The notes under the pieces were generated by a model that saw only the letters and a program-made list of their open reading frames with translations, was not told the DNA's origin and searched no databases. Shown piece after piece: positions 1,417 to 28,233 of a DNA stretch of 28,233 nt (the first letter of the stretch is position 1; each line of letters begins with the position of its first letter). Source of the stretch: a virus; IMG/VR virus record IMGVR_UViG_3300031950_000011, positions 1-28,233 of that record; one strand, 5' to 3'. The position numbers and the translations under genes are program-made.

Positions 1417-1857
1417 TTAGGGCGCGGGTAAGGACGAGGCAGCGGCGTCAGGCAGCGTACCGACGCACGCCATGCAGTGGGTGAGCGAGGCCCGCTGGCC
1501 CTGGCTCAGGTCGCCGCGGCCCGCTGAACAAACAGCAATCTGTGAACAATTGCACCGCTGCGGGTCGATCCGGTGCGGGCAGGCGCGCGCCCGGCGCACC
1601 CGCGCGATCGCGTCCCGCACGCGCGCGAGCGCGGCATCGTCCCGCACGACTCCAGTTGCCGCTGCCGCCGCCGCTGCCGCTGCCGCGGGCGCACCACTGC
1701 CGGTGGACGCGGGCATTGCCGCGGCGTGGCCCGTGCTGGCCCGCGCGGCCAAGTACGTCTCGCAGAACGTCCGCCCGTCGTGGTGCCGCAGCCCGGCGCG
1801 CCCGCACCGGTCCGGGATCGGGCAGGCCGCGCAATGGGTCACTCGCTCAATGTCCAT
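1417..1857 (-). CDS. Cys-rich putative metal-binding protein
   Basis: This 146-residue protein has two Cys-rich ends joined by a poly-Ala linker. The N-terminal part has HCAACPIPDRC followed by a further Cys. The C-terminal part has ACPHRIDPQRCNCSQIAVC and ends in HCMACVG. The spacing suggests two zinc-binding knuckles, but I do not recognise the family. The middle carries an uninterrupted run of ten alanines (about residues 60-69). It is the last gene of the tail block and overlaps the end of the preceding gene. I chose ATG 1857 to keep the overlap small (19 bases); ATGs at 1875 and 1977 are also in frame and no strong ribosome binding site settles it. It could be a tail accessory or a small DNA/RNA-binding protein. 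Confidence 0.6.
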   Translation of the reverse strand: MDIERVTHCAACPIPDRCGRAGLRHHDGRTFCETYLAARASTGHAAAMPASTGSGAPAAAAAAAAAATGVVRDDAALARVRDAIARVRRARACPHRIDPQRCNCSQIAVCSAGRGDLSQGQRASLTHCMACVGTLPDAAASSLPAP

Positions 1858-3113
1858 GTGATCGGCAGGACGCATGATGAAATGAATGGTGGGTAGGTTG
1901 AAGAAAAACTCGTCGCTGAGCCGGGGGTCCCCGTCCCGCCCGCCGGTAGATTTGCGAGCCACGGGGCAAATGTCCATAGGTAGCTTTTGTTACCAGATAA
2001 ATAGTTGACACGCACTGTGTTTAGGTTAGTCAATTCACTCACTGGATACGTAAACAAATTTGACCCAATGCCGAGGCGGCACGGCAGATTAAGCGTCGTC
2101 CTTTGACCAGTCGAAGTCTCCGTCGGGCACGCAACAACTTCATATGTTGTTGGGTTCATAACTCCAACGCGAAGATACTCAGTGAATGGATGGCCAAGCC
2201 AGACGTAGTCGCGCCGGATGTCGGTATGGTAGACATGGAGATAACCGAAACAAGGCGAGTACACCACGCGCACCTGCGCGCGGTACGCGGTCGGTGTGAT
2301 CGATCCAGGACGACACGGAAGCGACCAGGGTGCGTATGCATCTGCGCCAGGATCAATATAATAATACGGCACCGGTAGCTCCACCGGCGCGCTGACGTAG
2401 ACGTTCAGTAAATCCGGGCGGTACATGCCAGGGATACCCCCGGTCCCGGCGGTGAAGTTAAAATCAGCGGGTAGCGTGTCATGATACGTCAATGCGACCG
2501 ACCCAATGAGCGAGTCGGTATAATAGAGGGTCTGCGGGATCGGATGGACCCCGAGGCACTCGGCGTTTTCAAGGCCCGGAAAAACATAACCCGGCGCAGG
2601 TGTGGTCAAGTCAAACTCCTGGTCGGGCGCAGGGCATTCCAGGGTGATCGTGCGCGTCGCGGACTGGTACCGCGGGTGGCTCACGGTGATTGTCCATTCG
2701 CCCTCGGTGATGTCCGGAAACTCGACGACACCTGTACTATCTGTCGTTAGAGTGAATGATTGGTCATCTTTCTGGATCGTGACCGTTGCGCCAGAAAGTG
2801 GCACCGATCGGCCACGTACAATGACGCGCAGGGGGCACGTAACAATACATGTCCGGCAGGCGATGATGAGGATCTCGCGCCCGTCCGTGTGTATTAGGCC
2901 GGTCCGCATTGCCACGTGCCGTGTGTCGGCCTGGGGCGCGTCGGTGCGACACCGCGAGACCTCCACGATCTCGCGCCCGTCCGTGTGGACGCGACCTGTC
3001 CGCAGCGCGACGTGACGGCCCTCGATCGGCGCACAGGGATCGGCAACGACGACAATCTCACGCCCGTCCGAGTGCGTCAGCCCGGTGCGCATCGCCACGT
3101 GCCGACCGATCAT
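1839..3113 (-). CDS. Putative tail fibre / receptor-binding protein with triple repeat and Ig-like domain
   Basis: This 424-residue protein begins with three copies of a motif of about 19 residues, GRHVAMRTGLTHSDGREIV (residues about 3-21, 32-50 and 65-82), separated by short Cys-containing linkers. Residues about 93-160 look like a carboxypeptidase-regulatory or Cna-B-type beta-sandwich (PLSGATVTIQ, STGVVEFPDITEGEWTITV). The remaining 260 residues are rich in Tyr, Pro, Thr and beta-prone segments, as in tail tip or fibre domains. It starts at ATG 3113, overlapping the preceding stop as ATGA. Its place, third gene after the tape measure protein, fits a distal tail role. The function as receptor-binding protein is inferred from position and composition, not from a recognised family. 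Confidence 0.6.
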   Translation of the reverse strand: MIGRHVAMRTGLTHSDGREIVVVADPCAPIEGRHVALRTGRVHTDGREIVEVSRCRTDAPQADTRHVAMRTGLIHTDGREILIIACRTCIVTCPLRVIVRGRSVPLSGATVTIQKDDQSFTLTTDSTGVVEFPDITEGEWTITVSHPRYQSATRTITLECPAPDQEFDLTTPAPGYVFPGLENAECLGVHPIPQTLYYTDSLIGSVALTYHDTLPADFNFTAGTGGIPGMYRPDLLNVYVSAPVELPVPYYYIDPGADAYAPWSLPCRPGSITPTAYRAQVRVVYSPCFGYLHVYHTDIRRDYVWLGHPFTEYLRVGVMNPTTYEVVACPTETSTGQRTTLNLPCRLGIGSNLFTYPVSELTNLNTVRVNYLSGNKSYLWTFAPWLANLPAGGTGTPGSATSFSSTYPPFISSCVLPITWTLSE

Positions 3114-3397
3114 CCCAGCACCCTCACCCAGACCTCGGGACCATCCACCCACGCCGTGCCGTCCCAGCGCTGGATGCGGCCCGGATAGAGGCCATTCGAC
3201 GCGGTGCCGGTAATTCGCACGACCGCTGTATCATTGACATCGGCATCAACAAATTGCCCGACGGGTGTCTGAGTGACCCGGATTTTGCCGCCCTGAACAG
3301 GCACGACCTGCCCCTGCTCGACGGCATCTACGAGGCGATTCAGGTCACGCGCGGCCAATACTTGACCGGGCTGAAATCGTGGCAGTCGTTCATTCAT
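3110..3397 (-). CDS. Small distal tail-region protein
   Basis: This 95-residue protein begins MNERLPRFQPGQVLAARDLNRLVDAVEQ, a motif of the type 'F.PGqvl.A.dlN.l..aV' that I have seen at the start of phage proteins encoded near tail fibre genes. The rest is beta-rich (VVRITGTASNGLYPGRIQRWDGTAWVDG), consistent with a small virion domain. It lies three bases after the preceding stop and overlaps the next gene by ATGA, so it is translated with its neighbours. It is probably a minor tail or fibre-attachment protein; no enzymatic motif is present. Confidence 0.6.
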   Translation of the reverse strand: MNERLPRFQPGQVLAARDLNRLVDAVEQGQVVPVQGGKIRVTQTPVGQFVDADVNDTAVVRITGTASNGLYPGRIQRWDGTAWVDGPEVWVRVLG

Positions 3398-8544: not shown

Positions 8545-8994
8545 TCAGGATGTCTCCAGGCCCGAATCCGCCTCACCCCGCAGCACGCGCAGGACACGCT
8601 CGCGCGTCTCGCGCAGCGACCGCCGGAGCCACGGGCGCGGCTCGATCCGCGACGTGCCCAGCTCCAGATAGACCATATGATCCACCGATGAGCCGACCTG
8701 CACGGATAGCCCCTCGTCCGACTCAAAAACTTCGGGAAACAAACTAATCCCGCGGAACGAATCGGTCGAACGAAAGCCGATCGAGGCGCGGCCCTGCCCA
8801 GTGCGCAGCGCAGGCGGGTCACCGGGCGACGACGCCGGCGGGTAGCGCCGCGAGACAAGCCGCTTGGCGTGATTCCCCACCAGTAACGCGGCGCGAATCA
8901 ATCGCTGACGCATCACTTGTCGCGCTACCGTCATCGCTGACAGCTTATCCCAGACCAGCTCTGTTTCGATGATCAGGTCGAGGCCGTCACTCAT
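8545..8994 (-). CDS. HK97 gp10-like head-tail joining protein
   Basis: This 149-residue protein belongs to the HK97 gp10 / minor head-tail protein family. The key pattern is PPALRTGQGRASIGFR in the middle and VGSSVDHMVYLELGTSRIEPRPWLRRSLRE near the end, matching the family's 'p..rTG.L..si' and 'Ya.fqEfGT.....pFl.pal'. It probably joins the neck to the tail. I place the start at ATG 8994, which overlaps the preceding stop as ATGA; a start at 9027 would overlap that gene by more than 30 bases. Confidence 0.85.
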   Translation of the reverse strand: MSDGLDLIIETELVWDKLSAMTVARQVMRQRLIRAALLVGNHAKRLVSRRYPPASSPGDPPALRTGQGRASIGFRSTDSFRGISLFPEVFESDEGLSVQVGSSVDHMVYLELGTSRIEPRPWLRRSLRETRERVLRVLRGEADSGLETS

Positions 8995-10430
8995 ATCGAT
9001 GTATCCAAATCGCAATCGACGGTCCACATTTCGCTGAGCAGGTCGAGGTCACGGGGCACGCGGACGATGAGCCGGCGGGGTGCGCCGTGGGCTGTGATGG
9101 TGATGCGGTCGCCCACGCCGATAACCGTACCAGCCGCAACCAGCGGGGCGGGGTCAATATAGACGCGGTGTGTGATCCGCACGCCGTCGCGCTCATCGCT
9201 GGCGGGCCGGGCGCGGCTCCCGATCGGCTGCACATCCATCGGGACGTGGGAGGCGATGATCGACCACTCCGGCACGAGACCGCCATAGTCGCCCGGCTGG
9301 ACCGCGTGGCTGGGGCGCTCGATCGTGCCGAGTGCGAGTAGGTCCAGGCCCAGCAGCAGCGAGCCCGGAAACGATCCCGGCGGCGCGGGCAGCGGCACGG
9401 GCTCGGCTGTGACGACCAGCTCAGCCCCGAGGTCCAGCGACGCCGACGCACCAGCTTCTGGGGCCGCCGCCACGACCAGCGTCGGAGGCAGCGACAGCGT
9501 GGCCGCCGCATCGATGAGCGGCTCCGCCGTTACGACGAGCGTCGGCGCAAGCGAGAGACTTGCGCTGGCATCCGCGGGGGCCTCCGCTATGACCGTCAGC
9601 GTCGGCGACAGCGAGAAACTCGCGCTGGCGTCGGCGAGAGCCTCCGCCGCCACCGTCAGCGTCGGCGCGAGCGAGAGATTAACATTGGCATTCGCGGGGG
9701 CTAGTGCGTCAAAAACACGGATAAATAAGCGTGGACTAATGAGCCCAAATTCGCTCATCCAGTCGCGCGATAAATCAATCAGCTCCTGCTCATCCATCGC
9801 GCGCGGCCACGCCGCAAATCGCGCAATCCTTCGCGTGCCGGTCGATAGGCCAGAAAGGTCGCCCAATTTAGCAATCGTTCCGCTGGGGGGCCCAGGAACT
9901 CGCGCGACAAATGACGACGGAACACGTCCATTGATGACCAAGTTGGCGTCGCTGGCCGACATCGACGCCGCAATGACGCCCCATCGGGTGCCAGTCATGC
10001 CATGCGCGGCCACGACGCGCGGCGATCCGCCGTAGCCGGCGAATCCGACCCAGATATTGGGCGGCGTCATTTCGCCGCGATAGCCGCCTCCGTTGCGTAT
10101 AGCGAATAATCCCGACGACGCTGAATTTTCATCACAAATATCATCGCGCGTCGATGCATCCCAAGTGAGACGCACAACGAATGCCACTGTGATCGCCGAC
10201 GGCATTGCCACATTGACGTTGTGATGGCGATTAGCACCAACATATTCGACGGCACGGAATCCATTGGGACCGGCCTGGATCGTCGGAGTCCCCGCCCCGA
10301 CCGGTGCGGCCGGTCCATAGGGGGCACGCCAAGTCCCCGCGGAATCGCCCGCTTGGGCGGTCCGCGAGAGGCCCTCGCCGTCGTACCAGACGAGCGGTGT
10401 GCCGTAGGCGAGTGGACTGGACGGACGCAT
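8991..10430 (-). CDS. Fusion: lectin-like domain + five 20-aa repeats + head-closure-like domain
   Basis: This 479-residue protein has three parts. Residues about 10-235 resemble a LamG/concanavalin-type jelly roll (LVWYDGEG, FRAVEYVGANRHHNVNV, ITVAFVVRLTW, ANLVINGRV, RRIARFAAWPRAMDEQELIDLSRDWMSEFGL). Residues about 246-345 are five tandem 20-residue repeats of the form ADASASLSLAPTLVVTAEP. Residues about 370-479 resemble a head-closure/head-tail adaptor domain (SPP1 gp16 type): HAVQPGDYGGLVPEWSII, ITHRVYIDP, VIGVGDRITI and a final LSEMWTVDCDLD. Between the connector genes and gp10, a head-closure protein is exactly what is expected, but that protein is normally near 110 residues. The extra lectin and repeat region would project from the neck. 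Confidence 0.72.
   Translation of the reverse strand: MRPSSPLAYGTPLVWYDGEGLSRTAQAGDSAGTWRAPYGPAAPVGAGTPTIQAGPNGFRAVEYVGANRHHNVNVAMPSAITVAFVVRLTWDASTRDDICDENSASSGLFAIRNGGGYRGEMTPPNIWVGFAGYGGSPRVVAAHGMTGTRWGVIAASMSASDANLVINGRVPSSFVARVPGPPSGTIAKLGDLSGLSTGTRRIARFAAWPRAMDEQELIDLSRDWMSEFGLISPRLFIRVFDALAPANANVNLSLAPTLTVAAEALADASASFSLSPTLTVIAEAPADASASLSLAPTLVVTAEPLIDAAATLSLPPTLVVAAAPEAGASASLDLGAELVVTAEPVPLPAPPGSFPGSLLLGLDLLALGTIERPSHAVQPGDYGGLVPEWSIIASHVPMDVQPIGSRARPASDERDGVRITHRVYIDPAPLVAAGTVIGVGDRITITAHGAPRRLIVRVPRDLDLLSEMWTVDCDLDTSI
9396..9695. repeat. Five tandem 60-bp coding repeats
   Basis: Five head-to-tail 60-bp units inside the gene at 10430-8991 encode 20-residue repeats (core SLSLAPTLVVTAEP). 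The unit AGCGTCGGCG...AGCGAGA is visible at about 60-base intervals. Units are diverged at third positions but keep protein periodicity, so selection is on the protein. Confidence 0.85.
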
Positions 10431-25582: not shown

Positions 25583-25659
25583 CCGCGGGGGGACGAACAC
25601 TTGCCTCCACACCCCTCGCGGGGCCAGGGATTGTTGCTCCGATCCCTGGCCGCCTTTTT
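25583..25659 (+). repeat. Twin-hairpin element, copy 1 (terminator/attenuator)
   Basis: A first hairpin pairs CCGCG+GGGG (25583-25591) with CCCC+CGCGG (25612-25621, one bulged T). It is followed directly by GGCCAGGGAT (25622-25631) / ATCCCTGGCC (25642-25651), a perfect 10-bp stem with a 10-base loop, then GCC and TTTTT (25655-25659). The second hairpin has the form of a rho-independent terminator. It lies between the promoter at 25536 and the Rad52-like gene, so it could act as an attenuator. A second copy is at 26507-26580. Confidence 0.8.
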
Positions 25660-25711
25660 CCATTCGTGATTGGCTGGTGCGTTCGCCGTCCGTACATACC
25701 CCGGAGGTATG

Positions 25712-26506
25712 ATGACACGCTTTCCTGACTTGTTCGCGGCGCTGGCCGCACCGTTCGACGCACGGGAAATCAAAACCCGTCCGCAGGGCAAGCAGCGGCT
25801 GTCCTACGTGACGGCCCGCACGGTGATGAACCGCTTGGATGAAGTGGTCGGCCCGGAAAACTGGTGGGACGACTACGAACAGAATGAAGAGTCGGTGGTG
25901 TGCCGCTTGACCTTGCGGCTGCCTGACGGCACGACCGTGACAAAGTGCGACGCTGGCGGCCACGCGGGCATGGCCGACACGGGCGACGACGAGAAGTCGG
26001 CCTACTCGGACGCCTTCAAGCGGGCCGCGGTCAAGTTCGGGGTGGGGCGTCACTTATACGGCGATGGAATCCCCCGGCTACGGGGGCACCGGGCACGATC
26101 GCCGGCGGAGGCCGCGCCCGCGGCGGAGTCAGCGGCGGCGGCGGCAGCGGCCACGCAATACACGATCGAGGAGGCGCGGCGGCTAGATGAGGCCGCCGTG
26201 GCGCGGCAGTGCGCCCAGTGGATCCAGTGGGCGGACGAGACCAATGCGCTGGTGCGCCAGCGGTTTCCGCACTTGACGCCGCTGCAAAGGTCCGCGGCGA
26301 CCGTGACGATGGAACATGCGGTCGTTTCGCTGTATGACGCATATTGCCGCTCGGGCCGCGTGCCTGATACGCCACACTGGGATGACCGTATCCGGCTCGC
26401 TACGGTTGTTGCCGCCAGCCACGACCATGCCGACTGGCTGCGCAAACTGCAGCAGCGTATGCTGGACACCATTGCCAGCGTGTATTTGCCGCCGGCCAAA
26501 AAGTAA
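25712..26506 (+). CDS. Rad52/Sak-like single-strand annealing protein
   Basis: This 264-residue protein belongs to the Rad52/22 annealing family used by phages for recombination. The hallmark block is ARTVMNRLDEVVGPENWWDDYEQ, then CDAGGHAG and DEKSAYSDAFKRAAVKFGVGRHLYGDG (about residues 82-118), which are diagnostic. The second half is helical and Ala/Glu-rich (AEAAPAAESAAAAAAATQY), with further helices (AQWIQWADETNALVRQR). I chose ATG 25712; ATG 25709 is also in frame and the GGAGG at 25703-25707 leaves four bases to 25712. It is the first gene of the plus-strand cluster with Gp157-like, sigma-like and initiator-like proteins. Confidence 0.9.
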   Translation: MTRFPDLFAALAAPFDAREIKTRPQGKQRLSYVTARTVMNRLDEVVGPENWWDDYEQNEESVVCRLTLRLPDGTTVTKCDAGGHAGMADTGDDEKSAYSDAFKRAAVKFGVGRHLYGDGIPRLRGHRARSPAEAAPAAESAAAAAAATQYTIEEARRLDEAAVARQCAQWIQWADETNALVRQRFPHLTPLQRSAATVTMEHAVVSLYDAYCRSGRVPDTPHWDDRIRLATVVAASHDHADWLRKLQQRMLDTIASVYLPPAKK

Positions 26507-26580
26507 CCGCGGGGGCACGAGCGCCAATCACACCCCGCGGGGCCAGGGATCGCCGCTCTCGATCCCTGGCCGCCCCCTTT
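26507..26580 (+). repeat. Twin-hairpin element, copy 2 (terminator)
   Basis: Starts immediately after the TAA of the Rad52-like gene. Hairpin one: CCGCGGGG (26507-26514) with CCCCGCGG (26533-26540). Hairpin two: GGCCAGGGATC (26541-26551) with GATCCCTGGCC (26561-26571), 11 bp and nine-base loop, then GCCCCC and TTT (26578-26580). Loops differ between copies but stems are conserved. It is probably a terminator after the annealing gene or an RNA structure that tunes read-through into the Gp157-like gene. The rest of the 26581-26659 interval is a short AT-richer leader with GGAGG before ATG 26660. Confidence 0.8.
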
Positions 26581-26659: not shown

Positions 26660-27169
26660 ATGACGCTTTACGAGGTAAGCAGCGAGATGGCGGCGATTTT
26701 GGCCGCGATCGATGAGACTGGTGGTGAGGTCACCGATGAGGTGTCGGGGCAGCTCGATCGGCTGGCGGAGTCGCTACGGGAGCGGGTCGGCGCGTGCGTG
26801 CGCGCGATTCAGGGCATCGAGGCGGCAGCGGCGGCGGCGCAGGCGGAGTCGGAGCGTCTGGCGCAGTTGGCGACGCGCCGCCTGCGGCAGGCCGAGAGCC
26901 TGCGTGAGTACGTGATGCGGTGTCTCGACGCGACCGGCACGACGCGGCTAGACACGGACATTGCGCAGGTGTCTGTCCGCACGAACCCGCCGCGGGTCGA
27001 GGTGGACCCGCAAGACGTCACGGTGTGGCCCGCGGAATACATCGTCGTGACGCCCCGCGAGCCGGACATCAGGCCAAATCGGGCCGCCCTGCTGGCGGCT
27101 CACCGTGAGGGCCGGGAGCTGCCCGTCGGGGTGCGGGTCGTCCAGGGGCGGCGACTGGTTATCCGCTAG
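26660..27169 (+). CDS. Gp157-like siphovirus protein
   Basis: This 169-residue protein matches the pattern of the siphovirus Gp157 family: MTLYEVSSEMAAILAAIDETGGEVTDEVSGQLDRLAESL with long helices (VGACVRAIQGIEAAAAAAQAESERLAQLATRRLRQAESLREYVMRCLDATGTTRL) and a C-terminal strand segment 'DIAQVSVRTNPPRVEVDPQDVTVWPAEYIV...PNRAALLAAHREGRELPVGVRVVQGRRLVIR'. The coiled-coil first half and the strand-turn 'qVsvRtNPPrV' block are typical. Members are found near recombination genes, and function is debated (resistance to other phages has been suggested in streptococcal phage). GGAGG lies five bases before ATG. Confidence 0.85.
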   Translation: MTLYEVSSEMAAILAAIDETGGEVTDEVSGQLDRLAESLRERVGACVRAIQGIEAAAAAAQAESERLAQLATRRLRQAESLREYVMRCLDATGTTRLDTDIAQVSVRTNPPRVEVDPQDVTVWPAEYIVVTPREPDIRPNRAALLAAHREGRELPVGVRVVQGRRLVIR

Positions 27170-27185: not shown

Positions 27186-27791
27186 ATGAAAAGGTTTAAA
27201 TCCCTTAGGGCGCTCGATCAGTGGACGATTGAGCGCCTATCCGCTTGGCGTGCCGGCGACCGGGCCGCCGGCGATGAGGTGGTGCGCCAGTACACCCAGC
27301 TGGCGCACTATTTCTTGCTGCGCCATTTACGGTGGCCATCCGTCTTACGCCAGTATGAGGACCTATGCGTTGAGGTCGTACACGACACGCTCGCCTATGC
27401 GATGGCAAGCTACGACCCGTCGCGCGGGAGTTTTGGGTACCTACTTCTTCTTTCGGTGCAGCTGAAAGCAAGAAAAATCGTCTATGAATCAAGGCGTCAC
27501 GCCAAGCAAAAGCGGATACCGGACGGGTACGATCCGCCGTGGTCGCCCCGCGACGGCGTGTCTGACATCGGTCTCATCCACGATGCGATCCGACGTGCGG
27601 CGCGGACGCCATTTGAGCGATGGTACGCCGAGCACATCATCGCCGGCGGCGACTGGCAGCCCGCGGCGGTCGCCCGGATCGTAGGCGAGCCGCGTAAGCG
27701 TATCGCGGGACGGATCGACCGCTTTCGCTTACGCATCGCGGAAGCGTTACGCTCCAATGATCTCGGTATTGATGACTTTCTCGACGGATAA
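27186..27791 (+). CDS. Sigma-factor-like protein
   Basis: This 201-residue protein looks like a divergent sigma70-type factor. Residues about 30-95 (VVRQYTQLAHYFLLRHLRWPSVLRQYEDLCVEVVHDTLAYAMASYDPSRGSFGYLLLLSVQLKARKIVYESRRHAKQKR) follow the region 2 layout: two helices, 'dlvqE...g...a...fdp.rg.F..Y...'. Residues about 145-190 (DWQPAAVARIVGEPRKRIAGRIDRFRLRIAEAL) have the HTH layout of region 4. GGAG lies six bases before ATG 27186. It may direct late or early phage transcription, or be a DNA-binding protein that adopted the fold. The match is by pattern, without database support. Confidence 0.65.
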   Translation: MKRFKSLRALDQWTIERLSAWRAGDRAAGDEVVRQYTQLAHYFLLRHLRWPSVLRQYEDLCVEVVHDTLAYAMASYDPSRGSFGYLLLLSVQLKARKIVYESRRHAKQKRIPDGYDPPWSPRDGVSDIGLIHDAIRRAARTPFERWYAEHIIAGGDWQPAAVARIVGEPRKRIAGRIDRFRLRIAEALRSNDLGIDDFLDG

Positions 27792-27802
27792 TGGGGCGCG
27801 TC

Positions 27803-28233
27803 ATGAGCCAGAGAGGCAATGACTGGCCGGGCTGGTCGGGTGTCTGTGCCCGGCTGGCGGGGGCCAAGACAGGGGAGCGGGGCCTGCGGGTGCTGTTGGC
27901 GCTGGTCGCCACTGCCGACGCGGAGGGGCGGTCGGCAGCGACCCGCGACACGATCGCCGAGGTGACGGGCCTGGATACGCGCAACGTGCGGCGCACCATC
28001 GCGGACCTGGAGCGACGGGGGCTCCTGATGCGGCACGACGGGGCGGACCATCACATCCTCTTAGCCGCGCCGTACCGCCCTGCACCTAGTGAACAAACGC
28101 ACCCGGGCCAAATTAGCCCTCCCCCCCGGGCCAAATTGGCCCTCCCCCCCGGGTTAAATCAGCCCTCCCCTGACGTCATCAGTGCTGGGGAGGAGGGCCA
28201 AATTAGCCCTCCCTGTACAGATGCACCCGGGCT
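27803..28233 (+). CDS. Replication-initiator-like winged-helix protein (partial, runs off window)
   Basis: The frame is open to the window end. The N-terminal domain (about residues 20-85) has a winged helix: KTGERGLRVLLALVATADAEGRSAATRDTIAEVTGLDTRNVRRTIADLERRGLLMRHDG, typical of phage replication initiators that bind origin DNA (lambda O-like organisation). After that, a Pro-rich region is encoded by three exact-phased 23-bp repeats. I chose ATG 27803 with GGGGCG upstream; ATG 27791 overlaps the sigma-like stop as TAATG and is also in frame. Iterons embedded in the initiator gene are the lambda pattern. Confidence 0.7.
   Translation, partial: MSQRGNDWPGWSGVCARLAGAKTGERGLRVLLALVATADAEGRSAATRDTIAEVTGLDTRNVRRTIADLERRGLLMRHDGADHHILLAAPYRPAPSEQTHPGQISPPPRAKLALPPGLNQPSPDVISAGEEGQISPPCTDAPG
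28102..28233. repeat. Tandem 23-bp iterons, candidate replication origin
   Basis: Three exactly phased 23-bp units start at 28102, 28125 and 28148, each with CCCGGG, an A/T core and GCCCTCCCC. The core GGGCCAAATTGGCCC of unit 2 is a perfect 15-base odd palindrome. A fourth unit (GGGCCAAATTAGCCC at 28195-28209, then TCCC) follows after a 24-base gap that holds TGACGTCA (28171-28178), and a fifth may begin at 28226 (CCCGGGCT) before the window ends. Because 23 is not a multiple of three, the units are read in three different frames. Confidence 0.85.

Follow-up and report, generated by a model that had tools for sequence, protein, structure and literature searches.

Background

Many phages, such as lambda, have their replication start sites inside their own initiator genes. 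In lambda itself, ori-lambda maps within the O gene, where dimers of the O protein bind iterons that are nearly perfect inverted repeats and where an A+T-rich region of 40 bp opens (PMC5043065). In lambdoid Stx phages, the origin comprises six iterons within O, four of them strongly bound (PMC7466680). In Bacillus phage SPP1, oriL is located within gene 38, and the gp38 protein binds direct repeats inside its own gene, with an A+T-rich unwinding element adjacent to them (PMC6316719).

In the lambda genome (NC_001416), the part of O encoding the N-terminal DNA-binding domain is followed, from codon 117, by four annotated near-palindromic iterons, which have 15-bp cores such as CCCTCAAATTGGGGG, are spaced at 20/24/23 bp and are read in three frames; A+T-rich DNA comes after the iterons. 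Gene 55 of Fusobacterium phage FNU4 (OQ808964) encodes an HTH_36 winged helix (codons 18-72) and has four sites from codon 95, spaced at 22/23/24 bp and read in two frames, with A+T-rich DNA after them. In the P22-like Salmonella phage L (MW013502), the annotated origin is inside the initiator gene, gp18, which carries multi-frame repeats followed by A+T-rich DNA. Here we compare these systems with a row of repeats in the last gene of an IMG/VR virus record of 28,233 bp, which is classed as linear and was analysed as a whole (hereafter, the window).

The putative initiator gene and its neighbourhood

The features of the locus are summarized in Table 1. The putative replication initiator gene is incomplete at its 3' end, because the record stops at position 28233. 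The Erf/Rad52-like and Gp157/Gam-like genes lie upstream of the initiator gene on the same strand, which is consistent with a phage early region, and the terminase, portal, capsid and tape-measure genes are on the opposite strand.

Table 1. Positions of the putative initiator gene, its iterons and the neighbouring early genes in the window
Feature	Position	Strand	Remarks
Erf/Rad52-like single-strand annealing protein	25670..26506	+	PF04098, E=9.4e-15; phrog_1097, E=1.7e-23
Gp157 / Mu Gam-like protein	26660..27169	+	PF05565, E=7.5e-26; phrog_253, E=1.2e-24
Putative replication initiator gene	27791..28233	+	ORF of 147 codons to the record end; second possible start, ATG at 27803
Winged-helix domain (likely), codons about 33-83	27887..28039	+	PF13730 HTH_36; initiator PHROGs
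Iteron 1	28102..28124	+	Core 28105-28119, GGGCCAAATTAGCCC
Iteron 2	28125..28147	+	Core 28128-28142, GGGCCAAATTGGCCC; perfect palindrome except for the middle base
Iteron 3	28148..28170	+	Core 28151-28165, GGGTTAAATCAGCCC; CAG where the consensus gives in-frame TAG
Iteron 4	28192..28212	+	Core 28195-28209, identical to the core of iteron 1; arms reach GGAGGGC/GCCCTCC
Possible start of a fifth iteron (uncertain)	28226..28233	+	CCCGGGCT, cut by the contig end

The initial annotation had placed a winged-helix domain directly upstream of the repeats, and the profile searches bore this out. The predicted protein scored narrowly above the gathering cut-off of HTH_36 (PF13730; codons 33-79, 25.8 bits against 25), and its best PHROG was phrog_391, 'replication initiation O-like' (E=1.9e-5), followed by several other initiator families. 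A profile of 12 phage initiators also aligned, weakly, to the winged-helix stretch (45 columns, E=4.9e-4, probability 32%). The N-terminal model of the lambda O family (TIGR01610), in contrast, gave only 16.9 bits, where the cut-off is 45.5, and PF04492 was not listed for the protein at E up to 0.1. Taken together, the matches and the shortfall against TIGR01610 indicate that the gene product likely has a winged helix of the initiator type, outside the lambda O family. The proposal of a lambda-O-like origin made in the initial annotation thus stands with regard to the mechanism, given the layout and the O-like winged helix, but not with regard to family membership. A structure model from the single sequence was too poor for use (mean pLDDT 50), and a search by sequence among solved structures returned no match to lambda O.

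Between the Gp157 gene and the initiator gene there is an ORF of 201 aa (27186-27791, + strand), which has neither a Pfam nor a PHROG match. A model of an RNA polymerase sigma factor matched it very weakly (E=0.064), with a score well short of the cut-off, and it may encode a divergent sigma-like protein; a search for a phage relative of this ORF found none. The Erf-like gene is flanked by two near-identical hairpins, GGCCAGGGAT(N10-11)ATCCCTGGCC, at 25622-25651 and 26541-26571, where the chance expectation is none, and the former is followed by a T-run and has a terminator-like appearance.

The iteron array

The presence of a row of repeats in the initiator-like gene, as described in the initial annotation, was confirmed by a motif scan and by TRF. 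The motif scan found four copies of a 15-bp near-palindromic core, GGGCCAAATTAGCCC, on the + strand of the gene, with 0, 1, 3 and 0 mismatches to the motif in copies 1-4, respectively. The core starts are 23, 23 and 44 bp apart, that is, about two helical turns (23, 23) or four (44). TRF reported a 23-bp unit, CCCGGGCCAAATTAGCCCTCCCC, in 3.0 copies at 28102-28170 with 89% matches. The 23-bp unit of the initial annotation is therefore valid for copies 1-3 but not for copy 4, which follows 44 bp after copy 3; iteron 4 has the exact core of iteron 1 but lies off the 23-bp register, and its flanks differ. The arms of iteron 3 are broken. A fifth copy may begin just before the contig end (...GCACCCGGGCT, with GGG at 28229), and the contig stops 5 bases into this possible copy. 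When both strands of the window were scanned with up to 3 mismatches, 10 motif matches were found, 7 of them inside the array, whereas 100 shuffled sequences had 0.45 matches on average and never more than 3. The 24 bases between the last complete core and the contig end contain no visible A+T-rich region. The GC-skew profile from 20 to 28 kb showed no switch near the array, where the contig ends.

Relative to the codons of the initiator ORF, the cores start at offsets 2, 1, 0 and 2, and the copies are read in all three frames, giving the peptides GQISPP, AKLALPP and LNQPSP reported earlier and, in copy 4, GQISPP again. We compared the number of copies with two nulls that preserve the protein. 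When the codons were redrawn from the phage's own usage (1000 trials), at most three copies were obtained, in 18 trials, and never four. In the strictest null, in which the region's own codons were permuted among synonymous places (1000 trials), four copies were reached in 28 trials (about 0.03), owing to the many CCC proline codons of the region. A synonymous shuffle of the whole gene, which used a slightly different motif criterion, gave two copies in 39 of 40 trials and three in the other one. Since synonymous recoding rarely or never yields four copies, the repeat is probably kept at the DNA level rather than at the protein level, in agreement with the initial annotation, and it is unlikely to have arisen as a side effect of the protein sequence, although the strictest null was only moderately exceeded.

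Note that the consensus unit carries an in-frame TAG in one of the three frames (PGPN*PS). Of the complete copies, copy 3 is the one in this frame, and its CAG is what would be expected of an array maintained at the DNA level in a frame that has to remain open, although a single substitution is only suggestive. Frame crossing is common among phage initiators with intragenic iterons and is not surprising by itself; iterons in all three frames were also found in lambda O, Lactobacillus phage AB1 and Lysinibacillus phage LspM-01.

Comparison with other phage initiators

The array of the window has the same order and position as that of lambda O, although the site sequences differ and the protein is far below the score of the lambda O N-terminal model. 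FNU4 gene 55 shares with the window an early region that includes an Erf/Rad52-type gene, but the FNU4 iteron sequence (CCTATCACGAAAAA) is unlike that of the window, FNU4 is A+T rich, and the window gene is only remotely similar to gene 55. Salmonella phage L has its own Erf, which is related to that of the window, but the repeat step in gp18 is 11 bp, and gp18 has neither an HTH_36 nor a phrog_391 match. The likeness to SPP1 is by description only, and SPP1 differs from the window in having a second origin, oriR.

To place the array among phage initiators, we used FNU4 gene 55, which had been found in the early region of an Erf relative, as a tblastn query and obtained 103 phage records. Fifteen diverse records from this search, together with FNU4, lambda, phage L, bajarodcaudo virus 3 and Chenonceau, formed a scan set of 20 initiators, from which the window was excluded; this sample is not random, being mostly drawn by similarity to FNU4 gene 55. 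At least three sites 20-24 bp apart were found in 10 of the 20 initiators, with the array starting at codons 90-117. Besides FNU4 (22/23/24) and lambda (20/24/23), these were SpT252 (24/23), AB1 (23/23), R23.9 (22/23), phi39:1 (21/22), Cormatin (24/24), HU1 (22/23), LspM-01 (22/22/21/22) and Cruim01 (20/22/23). In eight of the ten, the 60 bp after the sites were richer in A+T than the gene. FNU4 and AB1 also have an Erf or Rad52-type gene close to the initiator. The codon shuffle often gave three copies in FNU4, SpT252, Cormatin and LspM-01 as well, and the single cases therefore vary in strength. The window belongs to the same architectural class, with four cores from codon 105, just after the winged helix, and its spacing of 23, 23 and 44 bp agrees with the period of about two helical turns seen as 20-24 bp in these ten initiators.

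Among the other initiators, SE-1 had a site spacing of 22/47, shorter steps were found in phage L (11 bp) and bajarodcaudo virus 3 (12 bp), and the scan did not find as many as three sites 20-24 bp apart in E72m5, B1578, CL1, P12002L, KC5a, PLgT-1 and Chenonceau. In bajarodcaudo virus 3 (locus L016, 5533-6477), the 12-bp repeats are in frame and are carried by an initiator gene that adjoins an Erf-like gene. A separate motif count found 12-bp in-frame repeats also in Flavonifractor phage Chenonceau (locus L013, 6671-7180), in the gene before the primase/helicase gene. We regard the 12-bp repeats of both phages as a shorter-period variant of intragenic iterons.

A candidate replication origin and alternative explanations

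We consider it likely, from the sequence and from the comparisons above, that an uncultured tailed phage has its replication origin in this array, within the gene for its own initiator. The N-terminal winged helix of the initiator would bind the near-palindromic iterons in the codons after the domain, probably as one dimer per site, and the bound copies would bend or wrap the DNA. An adjacent A+T-rich stretch would then melt, and the C-terminal part of the initiator would recruit the helicase or a helicase loader; both the A+T-rich region and the C-terminal domain are expected beyond the contig end, where any downstream gene for a helicase or its loader would also be located. Such an intragenic layout would be a good example of a known arrangement and not a new one.

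The near-palindromic sites would also suit a dimeric transcription regulator, and HTH_36 is close to the winged helices of such regulators, with weak matches of the protein to MarR, Crp and Rrf2 models. The sites could then be operators only, bound by a winged-helix regulator inside its own gene and having no function as an origin. We regard this as improbable, since the normal place of operators is the promoter, whereas the array is about 300 bp into the gene; moreover, the initiator PHROGs rank first, and the same layout is found in genes annotated as replication initiators, several of which have a replicative helicase gene after them.

An even smaller chance is given to a proline-rich repetitive linker, in which codon bias together with recent duplication would account for the likeness at the DNA level. 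Proline and CCC are abundant in the stretch, the permutation of its own codons did reach four copies at the frequency given above, and lambda O too has a linker after its winged helix. However, the three frames encode different peptides, so that no peptide motif is kept, four copies never arose with the phage codon usage, and the core of iteron 4 is exact in spite of its different register and flanks. Hairpins in RNA or single-stranded DNA, which might serve in attenuation or form a single-strand origin, for instance, would be in line with the somewhat better folding of the strand compared with its shuffles (z = -2.36 with DNA parameters; 3 of 200 shuffles folded equally well). Their involvement is nevertheless very improbable, because the predicted fold pairs different copies together instead of forming one hairpin per copy, there is no terminator-like site in the array, and the arms are broken in copy 3.

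As for the history of the proposed origin, it is conceivable but rather unlikely that the winged-helix initiator belongs to a lineage only distantly related to lambda O and to the HTH_36 phage initiators alike, and that this lineage reached the intragenic-iteron layout independently. If it did, the layout would be a repeated solution that keeps the initiator and the origin together in phage recombination. The phage to which this likely origin and its initiator are assigned is uncultured and G+C rich, and our searches did not recover a close relative of it. A pattern of near-palindromic sites spaced by 20-24 bp, falling in mixed frames and starting near codon 100 of a winged-helix gene, is suggested as a means of finding origins from sequence alone; the pattern was present in half of the small scanned sample, in phages of Bacillota, Fusobacteriota, Bacteroidota and Pseudomonadota.

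Searches for relatives and other features of the window

No close homologue of the initiator gene was found, and no relatives came up when related loci were searched for with the initiator, with Erf, with Gp157 or with the 201-aa ORF. The terminase search found four relatives; in the two that were scanned there was no phrog_391 match, and one of them had only a weak HTH_36 match below the cut-off. A search of genome contigs with the portal gave no match, and a plasmid search gave weak HTH matches only. The exact iteron pattern had one match in IMG/VR (locus L006), a single site amid simple repeats, which we read as chance, and the one match of the tandem pattern (locus L007) was in an unrelated gene with collagen-like repeats. 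A search with a guessed iteron pattern, GGGGGCAAAA, had no match.

Other features were observed elsewhere on the contig. An ORF on the - strand (8991-10430), whose protein has no NCBIfam match, contains a 60-bp tandem repeat in 2.8 copies (9508-9678), which encodes a 20-residue repeat (SLSPTLTV...). The protein encoded at 1839-3152 (- strand) has three near-identical N-terminal segments (RHVAMRTGLxHTDGREI), followed by a carboxypeptidase-regulatory-like domain (PF13620). At the contig end opposite to the early genes, a small protein resembling Cro/XRE-type repressors (PF13560, E=2.2e-15) is encoded at 487-705 on the - strand.
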